Shown here one piece after another: positions 54,206 through 61,339 of a DNA stretch of 64,000 nt. Both the position numbers and the translations under genes were made by a program. The notes under the pieces are model-generated. The model saw only the letters and a list, made by a program, of their open reading frames with translations. It was not told the DNA's origin and did no database searches. Source of the stretch: Phycisphaeraceae bacterium (GTDB taxonomy: Bacteria; Planctomycetota; Phycisphaerae; Phycisphaerales; Phycisphaeraceae); NCBI GenBank assembly GCA_028277745.1, contig JANQFR010000097.1, forward strand, positions 1-64,000. The letters run 5' to 3'. The stretch's first letter is position 1, and the number at the start of each line of letters is the position of its first letter.

Positions 54206-55267
54206 TCAGGATGAGACCGGTGAACCGCTCGATTCACCGCAGAACAATGAAACCTCGTCGGGTTTGAGCGCCAGCGGCCCCGGCCAGTCGCCGGGCTCGC
54301 CCCCTTGGGCGAACCACTGAAGGCAGACCCGCAGGTAGGGCGTCGGGTCCGGCGGCCGCAGGCAGGTGAGCGACGGCGTCAGGTATCGGTTCAGCCCCTG
54401 ATCGTCGACCGCCACGATCGACAGGTCGCGGCCGACCGCAAGGCCGCGCTCGTGACAACACCGCATCGCGGCGACCGCGGCCGGGGTCGTGATGCACAGC
54501 ACCGCGGTCGCGTCGAGCCCAACGCCCCCCAAGCACCGGTTCATCGCGGCGTACGCGGCCTCGGCCGGATCGTCGTACGACTCCACCGGCTCATCGATCA
54601 ACGGACCCTCCACCCGCTGCGCCGCCTTCCACACCGCCCACGCCGCCAGCCGGGCCTGGATGATCTCGTCGCGCGGCTGCGTGTTGAAGCACGCGATGCG
54701 GCGATGCCCCAACCGATACAGATGGTCCAATAGCTGATGGACCTGGCCCGGCGGGCACGTGTCGATGCAGCGGACCCCGTGTTCAGCCAGGTCCCGGTCG
54801 ATCACCACGACCGGGGCGGGCGAGGAACGGAACTTGTCGAGCACGTCGGCGGGGATGGGTTCGGCGGGCGGCTGAATCAGCACGCCGTCAAAACTATCGA
54901 GCGACTGGCCGACGATCGGGTCGTGCCAGTGAACGAATTCGATGGGGCGGACCCGCACGTTCCATTCCGGCCCCAGGCGCGCCAGCAGGTCGAGAATCGG
55001 GGTCGGGACGCCATTGGCCGGCCTGAGGATGGCGACCTGGGTGAGTTCGCTGAGCGGGCCCGAGTCGGTGCGCGGCTCGACCCGTCCGTTGGGCAGCCGC
55101 TGGAGCACCCCGCGGTCGACCAGGCGGGCCAGCGCCTTTCGCGCCGTCATCCGGCTGACGCCGACGTCCCGAGCCAACTCACGCTCGGCAGGGACCCCGG
55201 TCAGGCGGTAGTCGCCCCGCATCAGACGCTGTTCAATCACAGACGCGGCTTTGTCTCCGGCAGCCAT
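54206..55267 (-). CDS. GntR-LacI hybrid transcriptional regulator (AraR-like)
   Basis: 353 residues. N-terminal GntR winged helix (about 5-70; VPAERELARDVGVSRMTARKALARLVDRGVL, here by its key RELA and SRMTARKAL) fused to a LacI-type periplasmic-binding sensor domain (about 78-345; VVVIDRDLAE, HRRIACFNTQ, LSIVAVDD, LTCLRPPDP). This arrangement, as in AraR of Bacillus, senses a free sugar. ATG 55267 is used; an upstream ATG lies at 55285, inside the operator. A perfect ATACCAA-N2-TTGGTAT palindrome starts 12 bases before the gene. It leads a co-directional series of PEP-CTERM, prepilin-like and glycosidase genes, which it probably controls. Confidence 0.9.
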   Translation of the reverse strand: MAAGDKAASVIEQRLMRGDYRLTGVPAERELARDVGVSRMTARKALARLVDRGVLQRLPNGRVEPRTDSGPLSELTQVAILRPANGVPTPILDLLARLGPEWNVRVRPIEFVHWHDPIVGQSLDSFDGVLIQPPAEPIPADVLDKFRSSPAPVVVIDRDLAEHGVRCIDTCPPGQVHQLLDHLYRLGHRRIACFNTQPRDEIIQARLAAWAVWKAAQRVEGPLIDEPVESYDDPAEAAYAAMNRCLGGVGLDATAVLCITTPAAVAAMRCCHERGLAVGRDLSIVAVDDQGLNRYLTPSLTCLRPPDPTPYLRVCLQWFAQGGEPGDWPGPLALKPDEVSLFCGESSGSPVSS

Positions 55268-55278
55268 GTCCGCATAAT

Positions 55279-55294
55279 ATACCAAAATTGGTAT
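55279..55294. promoter_or_regulatory. Operator palindrome ATACCAA-AA-TTGGTAT
   Basis: Perfect 7-bp arms separated by 2 bases, 12 bases upstream of the GntR/LacI-type start codon. AT-rich in a GC-rich genome. The position points to autoregulation by the adjacent gene. Confidence 0.6.
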
Positions 55295-55401
55295 CTGTCA
55301 ATATTTTCAGTCCAATTGTGGATCAATTTTGTGGGGGGCGGCATCCATGACGGCGCAAAATGGCCACGCAGCGGCCTCAATGCGGATTCAACGCACTCTC
55401 T

Positions 55402-56967
55402 TTAAGCTGTGTTTCCGCCCCATCCGCCGCCGCCGGGGGTCTGGATCTCCAGGCCGCCGCCCGCGGGGATGTCGAGGGTGGTTTTGGCGGGCAGGTCTGA
55501 GGTTGAGCCATCGGGGTGAAGCAGCCGGTTGACGCCGGGCCGGCCGGGCCCGCCGCCGGCGAGACCGTAGGGTGGTCGCCGGCGGCGCTCGGTGAGGAGC
55601 GAGACAGTGACCGGGGCGGTGAACCGGTAGCGGCGGACCAGCCCGTCGCCCCCGCGATGCCGGCCTTCGCCGCCTGAGTCGGGCCGGATGGCGTTGGCCT
55701 CGATCAGCATCGGGAAGTGGTGCTCCAGCGCCTCGGCCGGGGTGTTGAGCGTGTTGGTCATGTGGGTCTGCACCGCGTCGCCGCCGTCGGCGTCGGGCCC
55801 GGCGCCCGCGCCGCCGGCGATGGTTTCGTAATACGCGAACGGCGCATGGGCGTCGGGGCGGGCGCCGCCGATGGCGAGGTTGTTCATCGTGCCGCAGGAG
55901 GCCGCGGGCACGCGGTCGGGCACGGCCCGGGCCAGGGCGCCGAAGACCGTGTCGACGATGCGCTGGCTGGTCTCGACGTTGCCCCCGACGACCGCCGCGG
56001 GGTATCGGGCGTCGACGATCGAGCCGGGCCGGGTGAGGATGTCGATCGCGTCGAGCACGCCCGAGTTCGATGGGATGTCGGCCGGGGCCAGGCAGCGGAA
56101 GACGTACATCACCGCCGACAGGGTGATCGCTCGGACCGCGTTGACCGGTCCGGCGGCCTGGTCGTCACTGTCCCGGAAATCGACCGTGGCCGTATCGCCG
56201 CGGACCGTAAGGGTGACGCGGATGGCGATGTCTTCCCGCCCGCGCCCGTCGTCGTCCAGGTAGTCAGTGAAGGCGAAGGAGCCGTCGGGCAGGCCTGCGA
56301 TGATCGAGCGGATGAACCGGGCGGTGTAGGCGCGCAGGGCCGCGCCGGCGTCGGCGATGCGTTCGGGGTTGTGAGCCCGGCACAACTCGTGGAGCCGGGC
56401 GATGCCGGCCTTGAGCGCGGCGCCTTGGGCGAGCAGGTCGCCGCGGCGTTCGTCGGGCGTGCGGGTCTGATGGACGAAGCGCTCGAGCAGGTCGTCGTCG
56501 AACCGGGAGGGCGGGATGCGGACGCCCTCGTCGTCGATGTGGGTCGCGATCGGCAGCGACCCGGGCGCGGCGCCGCCGACGTCGGCGTGGTGGGCTCGGT
56601 TGGCGACGAAAAAGCGGGGACGGTCCGGCGAGTCGATGAACACCGGGGCGACCAGCGTCACATCCGGCAGGTGGGTCCCGCCGGCATAGGGGTCGTTGAC
56701 GATGAAGCGGTCGTCCGGCGCCATGCGGTCGGGCGGGAACGCGTCGAGGATCGCACGGACGCTCATCGGGGCCGAGCCCAGGTGGACCGGGATGTGCGCC
56801 GCCTGGGCGATCATGTTGGCGTCGGGGTCGAAGAGCGCACAGGAGAAGTCGCGGCGTTCCTTGATGTTGGACGAGAAGGCCGAGCGCATCAGCCGCTGGC
56901 CCATCTCCTCGGCGGCCGCGGCGAGCAGGTGCTTGTAGACCTCCAGTTCGACGGCGTTGAAGCTCAT
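55402..56967 (-). CDS. hyuB: Hydantoinase/oxoprolinase B subunit
   Basis: 521 residues of the HyuB family, which with HyuA forms ATP-dependent 5-oxoprolinase or N-methylhydantoinase (also acetone/acetophenone carboxylase relatives). Markers: MSFNAVELEVYKHLLAAAAEEMG start, SSNIKERRDFSCALFD, HIPVHLGSAP, NDPYAGGTHLPDVTL, the AGPVNAVRA stretch and the Gly-rich end GGGGWGG. It needs HyuA for the ATP step. ATG 56967 overlaps the hyuA stop (ATGA), so it is translationally coupled. Substrate not fixed; see HyuA. Confidence 0.9.
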   Translation of the reverse strand: MSFNAVELEVYKHLLAAAAEEMGQRLMRSAFSSNIKERRDFSCALFDPDANMIAQAAHIPVHLGSAPMSVRAILDAFPPDRMAPDDRFIVNDPYAGGTHLPDVTLVAPVFIDSPDRPRFFVANRAHHADVGGAAPGSLPIATHIDDEGVRIPPSRFDDDLLERFVHQTRTPDERRGDLLAQGAALKAGIARLHELCRAHNPERIADAGAALRAYTARFIRSIIAGLPDGSFAFTDYLDDDGRGREDIAIRVTLTVRGDTATVDFRDSDDQAAGPVNAVRAITLSAVMYVFRCLAPADIPSNSGVLDAIDILTRPGSIVDARYPAAVVGGNVETSQRIVDTVFGALARAVPDRVPAASCGTMNNLAIGGARPDAHAPFAYYETIAGGAGAGPDADGGDAVQTHMTNTLNTPAEALEHHFPMLIEANAIRPDSGGEGRHRGGDGLVRRYRFTAPVTVSLLTERRRRPPYGLAGGGPGRPGVNRLLHPDGSTSDLPAKTTLDIPAGGGLEIQTPGGGGWGGNTA

Positions 56968-58943
56968 GAGGCCCCCTCCCGCTGCAGGATGACCGTGCCG
57001 GTGTCGTGGACCCGGCCGCGCCACCCCTCGGGGACCAGCGCGGTGGCGGAGTATTCGACGAGGACCGCCGGCCCGTGGATGACGGCGCCGGCGCCCAGGC
57101 CGGACCGATCGATCCGGCCGGTCAACGGGTCGCCGGTGTGGGCGCCGACCGGCGGGGCTTCAACCGTGGGTGTCGGGCCGTCCGCCATAAGCCGGGCGGT
57201 GACGATTTCGATGGGGCGGCGTCGGTCTTCGTAACCGTAGAGCCGGCGATGTTCCATGTGGAACATCTCAATCACGGATTCGTCCAGCGGCAGCGTGATC
57301 TCGTAGGACTGCCCCTCATAACGCAGGTCGAGGTAAGGCGATAAAACCGCGTTGTCGCCCAGCTCGGCCGCGGTTTGCCGCGAGAGCCGGTCCAGGGCGC
57401 TGCGGATCGCATCCACGTCGTGGATCGGCGCGCCGGGCGGGTGGGTGTGCAGGATGCTTTGCGAGAACATCCGCCGGGGCGGGGCGGTGAGCATCCCCAC
57501 CGCGGAGAGCAGGCCGGGGTGGGGCGGCAGGAGCACCGCGGTGATGCCGAGCTGGTCGGCGAGGCGGCAGGCGTGCAGCCCGCCCGCGCCGCCGAAGGGC
57601 ATGAACGCGAAGTCGCGGGGGTCGTGGCCGCGCTGGAGCGTGACGTGCTGGATGGCGCGGGCCATCGTGGCCTCGGCGACGCGCAGGACGCCCCGCGCGG
57701 TGTCGGGCGGGGTCAGGCCCGCGGCGTCGGCCAGGCGGCGGACCGCGTCGTGCGACGCCTCGGGGTCGAGGCGGATGTCCTGGCCGAGCACGGCGTCGGG
57801 GGCGATGTGGCCGAGGACGACGTGGGCGTCGGTGACCGTGGCGGCCTCGCGCTGCCTGCCGTAGCAGGCGGGGCCGGGGTCGGCGCCGGCGGACCGGGGG
57901 CCGACGCGCAGCGCCCCGCCGGGGTCGAGCCAGCCGATCGACCCGCCGCCCGCGCCGACGGTGTGCATGTCGACCATCGGCAACCGGATGGGCAGGCCGG
58001 CGGCGTCGCCGTTGTACCCGATCGCGGGCTCGGAGCGGATCAACGCCACGTCGGTGCTGGTCCCGCCCATGTCGAGCGTGATGAGGTCGGGATGGCCGCA
58101 GGCGCGCCCGACGTGGGCCGCGCCGAGCACCCCGCCGGCCGGGCCCGAGAGGATGGTGCGGATCGGCTGATCGTTGACGACCGACGGCGGCAGCGTCCCG
58201 CCGTGCGAGGCCATGATCGCCAGGTGCGGCTCGCCCAGTTCATCCGTCAGCCGGCCGAGGTAACGCCGCATGCGCGGGGCGACGACGGCGTTGATCGCGC
58301 ACGCGGCCGACCGCTCGTACTCCCGGTATTCGGGCAGCAGCTCGTGCGAGACGGTCAGGTGGACCTCGGGGCCCAGGCGGCCGCGCAACACCTCGGCGAT
58401 CCGGCGTTCATGGGCCGGGTTCGCGTAGCTGTGCAGGAGGCAGACCGCGACCGCCTCGACGCCGAGTTGATCGAGCCGATCGGCGAGCCGCTCGACCGCG
58501 GCCTCGTCGAGCGGCTCCAGCTCGGCGCCGGTATGGGTCAGCCGGCCGGGGACGCCGAACGAGCGGTCGCGGGGGATCGGCGGGTCGGGCCGGCAGGGGA
58601 CCAGGGCGTAGAGCTCGGGGCGGTTCTGGCGGGCGATGGCGAGGGTGTCCTCGAAGCCCGGCGTGGTGATCAGGGCGGCGTTGGCGTGGGCGCCTTCGAG
58701 CAGGGCGTTGGTGGCGACCGTGGAGCCGTGGACGACCGCGGCGGGGCGCTGGTTTTGAGGCGGCAGGCCCGCTTTTTCGAGGATCGCGTCGATGCCCCGG
58801 AGGACGGCGCCGCTGGGGTCGGCCGGCGTCGAGAGGAGCTTGTGGGTCGCGACGAGCCGCCCGGCCGGGTCGGCCAGGACGAGGTCGGTGAAGGTTCCGC
58901 CGGTGTCGATGCCGATCCGATAGGCGGGGCGCGGGGCGGCCAT
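56964..58943 (-). CDS. hyuA: Hydantoinase/oxoprolinase A subunit
   Basis: 659 residues. ASKHA-fold ATPase subunit: RIGIDTGGTFTDLVL at the N-terminus (phosphate 1 loop), TNALLEGAHANAALITTPGFED, SGPAGGVLGAAHVG, DMGGTSTDVALI (phosphate 2) and ADPGPACYG. The C-terminal FGGAGGLHA block is typical. It activates the ring carbonyl of 5-oxoproline or hydantoins by phosphorylation, with HyuB completing hydrolysis. The ATG at 58943 overlaps the argJ stop by one base (TGATG), so argJ-hyuA-hyuB is one coupled operon. That linkage to arginine/glutamate metabolism favours 5-oxoprolinase activity over hydantoin use (inference). Confidence 0.9.
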   Translation of the reverse strand: MAAPRPAYRIGIDTGGTFTDLVLADPAGRLVATHKLLSTPADPSGAVLRGIDAILEKAGLPPQNQRPAAVVHGSTVATNALLEGAHANAALITTPGFEDTLAIARQNRPELYALVPCRPDPPIPRDRSFGVPGRLTHTGAELEPLDEAAVERLADRLDQLGVEAVAVCLLHSYANPAHERRIAEVLRGRLGPEVHLTVSHELLPEYREYERSAACAINAVVAPRMRRYLGRLTDELGEPHLAIMASHGGTLPPSVVNDQPIRTILSGPAGGVLGAAHVGRACGHPDLITLDMGGTSTDVALIRSEPAIGYNGDAAGLPIRLPMVDMHTVGAGGGSIGWLDPGGALRVGPRSAGADPGPACYGRQREAATVTDAHVVLGHIAPDAVLGQDIRLDPEASHDAVRRLADAAGLTPPDTARGVLRVAEATMARAIQHVTLQRGHDPRDFAFMPFGGAGGLHACRLADQLGITAVLLPPHPGLLSAVGMLTAPPRRMFSQSILHTHPPGAPIHDVDAIRSALDRLSRQTAAELGDNAVLSPYLDLRYEGQSYEITLPLDESVIEMFHMEHRRLYGYEDRRRPIEIVTARLMADGPTPTVEAPPVGAHTGDPLTGRIDRSGLGAGAVIHGPAVLVEYSATALVPEGWRGRVHDTGTVILQREGAS

Positions 58944-60178
58944 CAGGTGGTGTAATCCGCGTTGATCGTGATGTACTGCCGGCTCAGGTCGCACCCCAGC
59001 CACTCGACGCGCGCATCGCCGCGGGAGAACGTGAGCGTGAACGCCACCTCGGGCTGCTTCATGATGCTGTCGAGCTTCTTGAGCGTGGCCTTGGGGTGGT
59101 CGACGGGGGCGCCATGATCAAAGACGCGCACCAGCCGGCCGCGGGGGTCGGAGATGTCCAGGGACAGGCCGTCGGGATTGAACGGCACGCCGCTGTTGGC
59201 GGCGGCGGTGACGATGCGGCCCCAGTTGGGGTCGGCGCCGTGGACCGCGGTCTTGACCAGCGGCGAGTTGATGACCGGGCGCGCGATCCGGTCGGCTTCC
59301 CTCTCGTTCTTCGCGCCGACGACGCGTACGCGGAACACCCGCTCGGCGCCCTCGCCGTCCTTGACGATCTGGTACGCCAGGTCCTGGCACATCGCGGTGA
59401 GGGCGTCGGTGAAGGCGCGGTAGTCGGCGGTCCTGTCGCGCAGCGGCGGGTGGCCGGCGAGCCCGGAGGCGAGGACCAGGACGGTGTCGCTGGGGCTGGT
59501 GTGTTCGTCCACGCTGATGCGGTTGAAGCTCGCGCCGACCGCGCCGGTGAGGGCCTGGCGGAGAAGGTCGGGACCGATCGCGGCGTCGGTGGTGAGGAAG
59601 ACGAGCATCGTGGCCATGTCGGGGGCGATCATGCCGCTGCCCTTGGCGATGCCGCCGAGGTGGACGGTCTGGCCGCTGATGGTCAGCTTGGCGTAAGCCG
59701 ACTTGGGGACCAGGTCGGTGGTCATGATGCCGCGGGCGGCGTCCTGGTCGGCGCGGGGCCCGCGGTCGAGCCGGGGGACGAGGGCGTCGACGCCGGCCTC
59801 GATCCTGTCCATCGGCAGCTGCGGGCCGATCAGGCCGGTGGAGCTGGGGACGACGGCCCCGGGCGGGATGTCGAGGCGGTGGGCGACAAGGCGGGCGGTG
59901 GCGATGGCGTTGTCGACGCCTTGCTGGCCGGTGGCGTCGTTGGCGATCCCGCTGTTGACGATGACGGCCTGGGCGGCGCCGTCCTTGAGGTGGCGTTTGC
60001 CGACGATGACCGGGGCGCCGGGCAGGCGGGAGCGGGTGAAGACCGCGGCGGCGGCGCAGGGCCGGTCGGCGGCGATGAGGGTGAGGTCGGCCTTGCCCGA
60101 CGGCTTGATGCCGCAGGTGGTCGCGGCGGCGCGGAACCCGCGGGGGGTGGTCAGGCCGTGATGGGGTCGCGGGGGCAT
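58943..60178 (-). CDS. argJ: Arginine biosynthesis bifunctional protein ArgJ
   Basis: 411 residues. Transfers acetyl from N-acetylornithine to glutamate and in bifunctional forms also from acetyl-CoA. The Ntn-type self-cleavage site is in APDMATMLVF (nucleophile Thr after Ala), dividing alpha and beta chains. Other markers: FRAAATTCGIKPSGKADL, NSGIANDATG (usual NAN), STGLIGPQLPM, GGIAKGSGMI, SVDEHTSPSDTVL and DPNWGRIVTAAANSGV. ATG 60178 is used; the frame runs to a TTG at 60214. It is first in an operon with hyuA and hyuB and divergent from the aldolase gene. Confidence 0.94.
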   Translation of the reverse strand: MPPRPHHGLTTPRGFRAAATTCGIKPSGKADLTLIAADRPCAAAAVFTRSRLPGAPVIVGKRHLKDGAAQAVIVNSGIANDATGQQGVDNAIATARLVAHRLDIPPGAVVPSSTGLIGPQLPMDRIEAGVDALVPRLDRGPRADQDAARGIMTTDLVPKSAYAKLTISGQTVHLGGIAKGSGMIAPDMATMLVFLTTDAAIGPDLLRQALTGAVGASFNRISVDEHTSPSDTVLVLASGLAGHPPLRDRTADYRAFTDALTAMCQDLAYQIVKDGEGAERVFRVRVVGAKNEREADRIARPVINSPLVKTAVHGADPNWGRIVTAAANSGVPFNPDGLSLDISDPRGRLVRVFDHGAPVDHPKATLKKLDSIMKQPEVAFTLTFSRGDARVEWLGCDLSRQYITINADYTT

Positions 60179-60271: not shown

Positions 60272-61339
60272 ATGCCGTCGATCGAATCATTGCTGGGGTC
60301 CGACGCCGAGGCTCTGTTGAGTTACAAGGCGGAGGGGTTTGACCAATCGACCCTGCACCTGCCGGGGCCGGACTTCGTCGAGCAGGTGCTGGCGCCGACC
60401 GATCGACCGGCGCCGGTGCTGCGGAATTTTCAGACGATCCTCGACCACGGCCGGCTGGGTGGGACCGGCCACGTGTCGATCCTGCCGGTGGACCAGGGCA
60501 TCGAGCACTCGGCGGGCGCCAGCTTCGCGCCCAACCCGCTGTACTTCGACCCCGAGAACATCATCCGGCTCGCCCACGAGGGCGGCTGCAACGCCGTCGC
60601 GTCGACGCTCGGCGTGCTCGGGGCGTGCTCCCGCAAGTGGGCCCACAAGGTCCCGTTCCTGGTCAAGCTCAACCACAACGAGCTGCTGACCTACCCCAAC
60701 ACGTTCGACCAGATCATGTTCGGCCAGGTCGAGCAGGCGTTCGACATGGGCGCGGTCGCGGTCGGGGCGACGATCTATTTCGGCTCCGACGAAGGCGACC
60801 GGCAGATCCAGGAGGTGAGCGAGGCGTTCGCCCGGGCCCATCAACTGGGGATGGTGACCGTGCTGTGGTGCTACCTGCGCAACAGCGGGTTCAAGAAGGA
60901 CGGGGTCGATTACCACGTGTCCGCCGATCTGACGGGGCAGGCGAATCACCTGGGTGTGACGATCCAGGCCGACATCATCAAGCAGAAGCTGCCGGAGAAC
61001 AACGGCGGGTTCAACGCGGTCGGCTTCGGCAAGACGCACCCGAAGGTCTACAGCGACCTGACGCCCAACGAGGGGCAGCCCGGACACGCGATCGAGTTGT
61101 GCCGGTACCAGATCGCCAACTGCTACATGGGCCGGTCGCCGCTGATCAATTCGGGCGGGGCGTCGAGCGGCGCCGGCGACCTGGCGGAGGGGGTGCGGAC
61201 CGCGGTGATCAACAAGCGCGCCGGCGGGATGGGACTGATCTCCGGCCGCAAAGCCTTTCAGCGTCCGATGAGCGAGGGCGTCGAGCTGCTCAACGCCATC
61301 CAGGACGTGTATTTGGACGACAAGATCACCGTCGCCTAG
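60272..61339 (+). CDS. fbaB: Class I fructose-bisphosphate aldolase (DhnA type)
   Basis: 355 residues. Metal-independent aldolase of the FbaB/DhnA group that splits fructose 1,6-bisphosphate. [18 protein letters not shown] near the N-terminus, the strand [13 protein letters not shown] with the Lys region, [29 protein letters not shown] and [12 protein letters not shown] are shared with long bacterial members. The C-terminus [13 protein letters not shown] contains the conserved Arg/Lys loop of the phosphate site. ATG 60272 follows GGAGGC. The gene starts 93 bases from argJ in divergent orientation; hsp20 follows after 9 bases. Confidence 0.93.

Follow-up and report, generated by a model that had tools for sequence, protein, structure and literature searches.

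In a member of the Phycisphaeraceae, the arginine gene argJ is followed by hyuA and hyuB in a genuine operon, which is limited to one clade and brings known enzymes into a new arrangement. HyuAB is probably a two-subunit, ATP-dependent 5-oxoprolinase of the OplA type, with 5-oxoproline as the substrate best supported, indirectly, by the sequence and genome comparisons described below. The explanation that we propose, and to which we give about even credence, is that the translationally linked operon joins ArgJ to an enzyme that would return cyclized glutamate to the pool on which ArgJ draws.

Organization of the argJ-hyuA-hyuB Locus

The analyzed window is a stretch of 64,000 nucleotides (contig JANQFR010000097.1, assembly GCA_028277745.1; the genome is referred to as G000), and the features of the locus are collected in Table 1. 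According to the open reading frames and family profiles, the original prediction was correct in its gene names, in both junctions (TGATG and ATGA), and in calling HyuAB oxoprolinase-type.

Table 1. Features of the argJ-hyuA-hyuB locus and its flanks (positions in the window).
Feature	Position	Strand	Description
argJ	60178..58943	minus	411 aa from ATG at 60178; intact ORF
hyuA	58943..56964	minus	659 aa; intact ORF; ATP-binding subunit, hydantoinase/oxoprolinase-type lactamase
hyuB	56967..55402	minus	521 aa; intact ORF; metal-binding hydrolytic subunit, OplA-type motifs
argJ stop / hyuA start	58943..58945	minus	TGATG, 1-base overlap, base 58943 in both genes
hyuA stop / hyuB start	56964..56967	minus	ATGA, 4-base overlap; purine-rich stretch just upstream
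Class I fructose-bisphosphate aldolase	60272..61339	plus	NF006707, 623 bits (cut-off 327); divergent from argJ, outside the operon
GntR/LacI-type regulator gene	54206..55285	minus	PF00392 and PF13377; downstream, outside the operon

The purine-rich stretch GGGAGGGGG precedes the hyuB ATG, and no purine-rich stretch of this kind was seen upstream of the hyuA start. Judging from this layout, it is plausible that the three genes are translated together, hyuA by coupling, which fits the presence of a purine-rich stretch at hyuB alone. Since the downstream regulator gene has a strong promoter-like site of its own (55301-55274, 11/12 match) and the aldolase gene at 60272 is divergent, the operon plausibly comprises just argJ, hyuA, and hyuB; no copy of the regulator gene was found in the other clustered argJ/hyuAB neighborhoods. 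The promoter-like site overlaps an inverted repeat, ATACCAATTTTGGTAT (55265-55301; repeat read by eye), just upstream of this chimeric GntR/LacI regulator, and the two together are probably its autoregulatory operator.

ArgJ is the single match of its kind in the whole genome, and argC is located elsewhere (contig C47). The protein matches PF01960 (E 3.5e-134) and exceeds both NCBIfam equivalog cut-offs over residues 7/8-411 (NF003802, 453.6 bits with a cut-off of 351; TIGR00120, 412 bits with a cut-off of 298). Judged by these scores, it is a glutamate N-acetyltransferase/ornithine acetyltransferase, i.e., the enzyme that ordinarily recycles the acetyl group in arginine synthesis. The autocleavage motif KGSGMIAPDMATML is found at residue 179, and its threonine is presumably the nucleophile of autocleavage.

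Family Assignment of HyuA and HyuB

HyuA, the sole HyuA match in the genome, contains the domains Hydantoinase_A (PF01968, E 2.2e-89) and Hydant_A_N (PF05378, E 3.7e-55), and HyuB contains Hydantoinase_B (PF02538, E 5.9e-192). The ATP-site motifs DxGGTxTD, DMGGT, and GxxPGP are described for caprolactamase (PMC8453981); HyuA carries DTGGTFTD at residue 13, DMGGT at 291, and GADPGP at 353. In HyuB, the metal-ligand blocks RRDFSCALFD, GGTHLPD, and RAHHADVGG align with the Asp41/His99/Asp102/His124 regions of CapB.

For HyuB, 30 HyuB-type sequences were aligned, among them nine fused OplA-type proteins drawn from the class. Identity of HyuB to these nine is 41.6-48.4%, compared with 29.7% to CapB and 32.3% to N-methylhydantoinase. 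HyuB has the blocks DFSCA, HIPVHLG, HLPD, RAHHA, GTMNN, YYET, and HMTNT in common with most of the nine, and within this alignment the blocks are found neither in CapB nor in N-methylhydantoinase. The eukaryotic-type 5-oxoprolinase OplA/OPLAH thus resembles HyuAB in the order Hydantoinase_A then Hydantoinase_B, in its ATP motifs and metal ligands, and in these motif blocks, the likeness being judged on the fused proteins of the alignment. However, OplA/OPLAH is one chain of ~1250-1300 aa, whereas HyuAB consists of two subunits joined to argJ, and HyuA branches outside the clade of fused OplA proteins (100/100), which counts against OplA identity. The nearest solved relative of HyuA, N-methylhydantoinase, counts against the 5-oxoprolinase reading as well. 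Because of the tree position and this closest structure, the pair is termed OplA-like and not an OplA orthologue. According to a survey cited in PMC13274462, the 5-oxoprolinase type at issue occurs in only 115 of 984 genomes.

Among PDB entries, HyuA (E 3.4e-126) and HyuB (E 5.5e-69) both match N-methylhydantoinase (PDB 7hk5) best, and hydantoinase is also the usual annotation, so that HyuAB might serve to break down scavenged cyclic ureides as a hydantoinase or N-methylhydantoinase. We regard this as very improbable: the known enzyme is a single 1288-aa chain, HyuB shares less than a third of its residues with it and has other motif blocks, and no carbamoylase or ureide gene was found in the subset of neighbors scanned. 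CapAB of Pseudomonas jessenii (PDB 6yra) is similar to HyuAB in its two unfused subunits, with the ATP site in A and an Asp/His/Asp/His metal site in B (PMC8453981). Nevertheless, caprolactamase was rejected: HyuAB scores 433.2 and 210.3 bits with the NCBIfam equivalog models, whose cut-off is 1000, identity to CapB is low, and the vicinal disulfide cysteines of CapB are missing in HyuB, where HMTNTL-type residues align with the CapB segment CCFGAL. Acetone/acetophenone carboxylase was rejected as well (acetophenone carboxylase models, 219.9 vs. 1500, 125 vs. 1250, and 79 vs. 1500).

Genomic Pointers to the Substrate

The reaction proposed for HyuAB, i.e., the conversion of 5-oxoproline with ATP to glutamate, is also that of PxpABC, which belongs to an unrelated protein family; PxpA (PF03746, LamB_YcsF) has 0 matches in G000. 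In a class sample of 248 genomes, PxpA was found in 14 and HyuA (threshold E 1e-20) in 70, with an overlap of 0/14 (chance 0.008). Among the 70 HyuA matches, 13 are weak and partial, mostly covering the N-terminal half, and may represent another family; without them, the number of HyuA genomes is 57 and the chance of no PxpA overlap 0.023. Within the order-level family f2, PxpA occurs in 0/6 HyuA genomes vs. 7/9 of the others (0.006 by genome, 0.03 by genus). In the family of G000 itself (51 genomes), three PxpA genomes and 22 HyuA genomes show zero overlap, which is not significant (0.18). The genome G234 illustrates the pattern at a single locus: pxpB, pxpA, and pxpC adjoin one another away from the argJ locus, where argJ is followed by a zinc-ribbon-like gene (c13) and several further genes ordered as in G254. 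Here, hyuAB is missing where the relatives G078 and G254 have it, and in G254 hyuA-hyuB precede c13.

Pyroglutamyl peptidase releases 5-oxoproline, and its distribution points in the same direction. PF01470 has five matches among the 51 family genomes, four of them good (G260, G261, G131, and G078), and hyuAB is present in 4/4 genomes with an intact pyroglutamyl peptidase (chance 0.002 by genome, 0.03 by genus), a support for 5-oxoproline that comes from two genera. Since the genomes share ancestry and are not independent, the probabilities for both PxpA and pyroglutamyl peptidase are rough. The fifth PF01470 match, in G000 (C33, 125718-125882; L311), is what is left of a broken pyroglutamyl peptidase gene.

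Conservation of the Linkage

The family sample of 51 genomes includes G000 and strain ZRK32 (G283). A HyuA match was found in 22 of these genomes, an ArgJ match in 46, and both in 20, leaving 26 of the 51 with argJ but without any HyuA-type match. The close two-subunit HyuAB group is represented in 12 genomes, and argJ lies directly upstream of hyuAB in five of them (G000, G243, G283, G078, and G072, from genera g1, g4, g5, and g10). In G254, argJ is located at one contig end and a 5'-truncated hyuA begins another contig, which probably makes it a sixth linked genome, split by a contig break. The six unlinked genomes (G131, G263, G261, G260, G262, and G280) have no HyuA within 1.8-7.4 kb downstream of argJ, and in G023, of a sister family, argJ and hyuAB are ~10 kb apart on opposite strands. 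The junctions of the linked genomes overlap in three cases (G000; G072, ATGA; G078, GTGA) and are separated by a short gap in two (G243 and G283). Since G072, G078, G243, and G283 have the three genes in the same order, on one strand, and with a tight junction, the trio is not a product of chance. Conservation beside argJ, which the original prediction proposed as a check, holds for five of the 12 close HyuAB genomes, probably for one more, and breaks down elsewhere: among the best 80 HyuA loci of other genomes, some of them short, argJ adjoins only in the in-family strain ZRK32. A literature search returned no paper on a link between argJ and an oxoprolinase, the matches being incidental by title.

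Outside the linked genomes, the surroundings of hyuAB give no clue to the substrate, since the neighbors of unlinked hyuAB (Hsp70, glucose dehydrogenase, ribonucleotide reductase, amidase, and others) are unrelated. At HyuA loci in other phyla, no recurring, evidently relevant metabolic partner was seen among the neighbors scanned. Among 78 HyuA loci from other genomes (L063-L140), some of them short, 44 showed no HyuB in the examined DNA by tblastn or HMM, and HyuA without an adjacent HyuB seems common in Gemmatimonadota and Chloroflexi. In G284, two tandem hyuB-type genes are followed by a hyuA-type gene (L197, 3099-6560). G193, a single-contig genome from the same genus as the linked G072, is devoid of ArgJ, HyuA, and class II aldolase matches and retains argC; a check for an empty site located one downstream gene and no clean scar.

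The idea that the operon recycles cyclized glutamate into arginine synthesis, as originally predicted, survives in part: 5-oxoproline is the substrate best supported by indirect evidence, but the six close genomes with hyuAB apart from argJ and the 26 genomes with argJ alone indicate that the two functions need not go together. The same distribution bears on the possibility that the substrate of HyuAB arises as a cyclic by-product in arginine synthesis, such as the lactam of ornithine, the product of ArgJ, so that its opening would repair a damaged intermediate. The tight linkage to argJ points to precisely this product, and the six-membered lactam of ornithine would be a plausible substrate on chemical grounds, since the wider family opens valerolactam (six-membered) and caprolactam (seven-membered; PMC8453981). 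We nevertheless consider it improbable, given that HyuB is nearer to the OplA type than to CapB and has no vicinal cysteines of the CapB kind, that hyuAB is unlinked in half of the close genomes and absent from most of the family genomes that have argJ, and that no enzyme for ornithine lactam appeared among the literature matches listed, as judged by titles and the openings of abstracts.

Evolutionary History of argJ and hyuAB

In the large HyuA tree, the five linked sequences and G280 form a clade (100/96), which is weaker in a smaller tree (93/95). Holding the five linked HyuA as one clade was not rejected (AU p 0.138), so that one joining event is enough. On the RpoB tree, the linkage states of the hyuAB carriers could be accounted for by a single gain together with a loss in genus g6. 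A single origin is also what would be expected if the arrangement had no metabolic logic, i.e., if hyuAB had landed behind argJ on one occasion in an ancestral genome and had since been kept for the overlapping junction and the steady argJ promoter. This explanation, which we judge possible but doubtful, agrees with the separation of hyuAB from argJ in genus g6, G280, and G023, and with the complete absence of hyuAB from genomes that keep argJ (g196, g9, G149, and G256, with the exception of G270 of g196, which is 79% complete and has no ArgJ match). However, the junction is kept in four genera, across which HyuA identity is ~51-58%, while the gene after hyuB changes from genus to genus and differs even within one genus, between G243 and G283. 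Retention of the linkage in g1, g4, g5, and g10 next to a changing downstream gene counts in favor of the 5-oxoprolinase explanation.

A second argument against mere inheritance comes from argJ of G000 itself, which looks foreign and yet has hyuAB attached. In the RpoB tree, G000 is sister to G243/G283 (97/95), whereas its ArgJ groups with genus g196 (100/99), which is without hyuAB. Forcing ArgJ together with the RpoB sisters was rejected (p 0.0007), and the same constraint on HyuA came only near rejection (p 0.055); the ArgC tree, taken as a species tree, did not resolve the deep branches. It appears from these trees that argJ of G000 was replaced by a foreign relative with hyuAB still attached, and the simplest reading would be that an aldolase-argJ part was swapped in next to a resident hyuAB. 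The alternative history is an independent insertion of hyuAB after a g196-like argJ. Recombination at the argJ 3' end as the route by which hyuAB entered G000 was not supported, since sliding identity shows no clear switch to G078, G072, or G243. The aldolase gene divergent from argJ is of class I in G000, G280, G273, and G281 and of class II in most relatives, i.e., two unrelated enzymes for one reaction alternate at the site beside argJ. A class II aldolase gene of G000 is located on another contig (C60; L263, 5153-6202).

A Putative Role in Glutamate Repair

Glutamate takes part in both half-reactions of ArgJ, and co-expression with a glutamate-forming enzyme would therefore refill the pool in use. 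In the proposed mechanism, which follows that of caprolactamase (PMC8453981) by analogy, HyuA and HyuB would act as one complex. The lactam ring would be activated by HyuA at the expense of ATP, perhaps by way of carboxyphosphate, and hydrolyzed at the HyuB metal site to glutamate, which would then rejoin the pool used by ArgJ. PMC13274462 names glutamate, glutamine, and glutamyl phosphate as sources of spontaneous 5-oxoproline, and also reports very large bacterial glutamate pools. With pools of this size, a flux gain for arginine is doubtful, and a clean-up tied to biosynthesis is more likely. The benefit would accordingly be one of housekeeping, in which a spontaneous dead-end lactam is cleared and glutamate is regained during amino-acid synthesis, rather than a dedicated flux into arginine.

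A stronger version, which we consider rather unlikely, is that lactam repair is wired into arginine synthesis: hyuAB would be selectively kept beside whichever argJ is present, even a foreign one, so that cyclized glutamate or ornithine lactam is repaired as arginine forms. If true, argJ-hyuA-hyuB would represent a metabolite-repair module inside an amino-acid operon, in which biosynthesis is combined with the repair of a metabolite that is damaged spontaneously.
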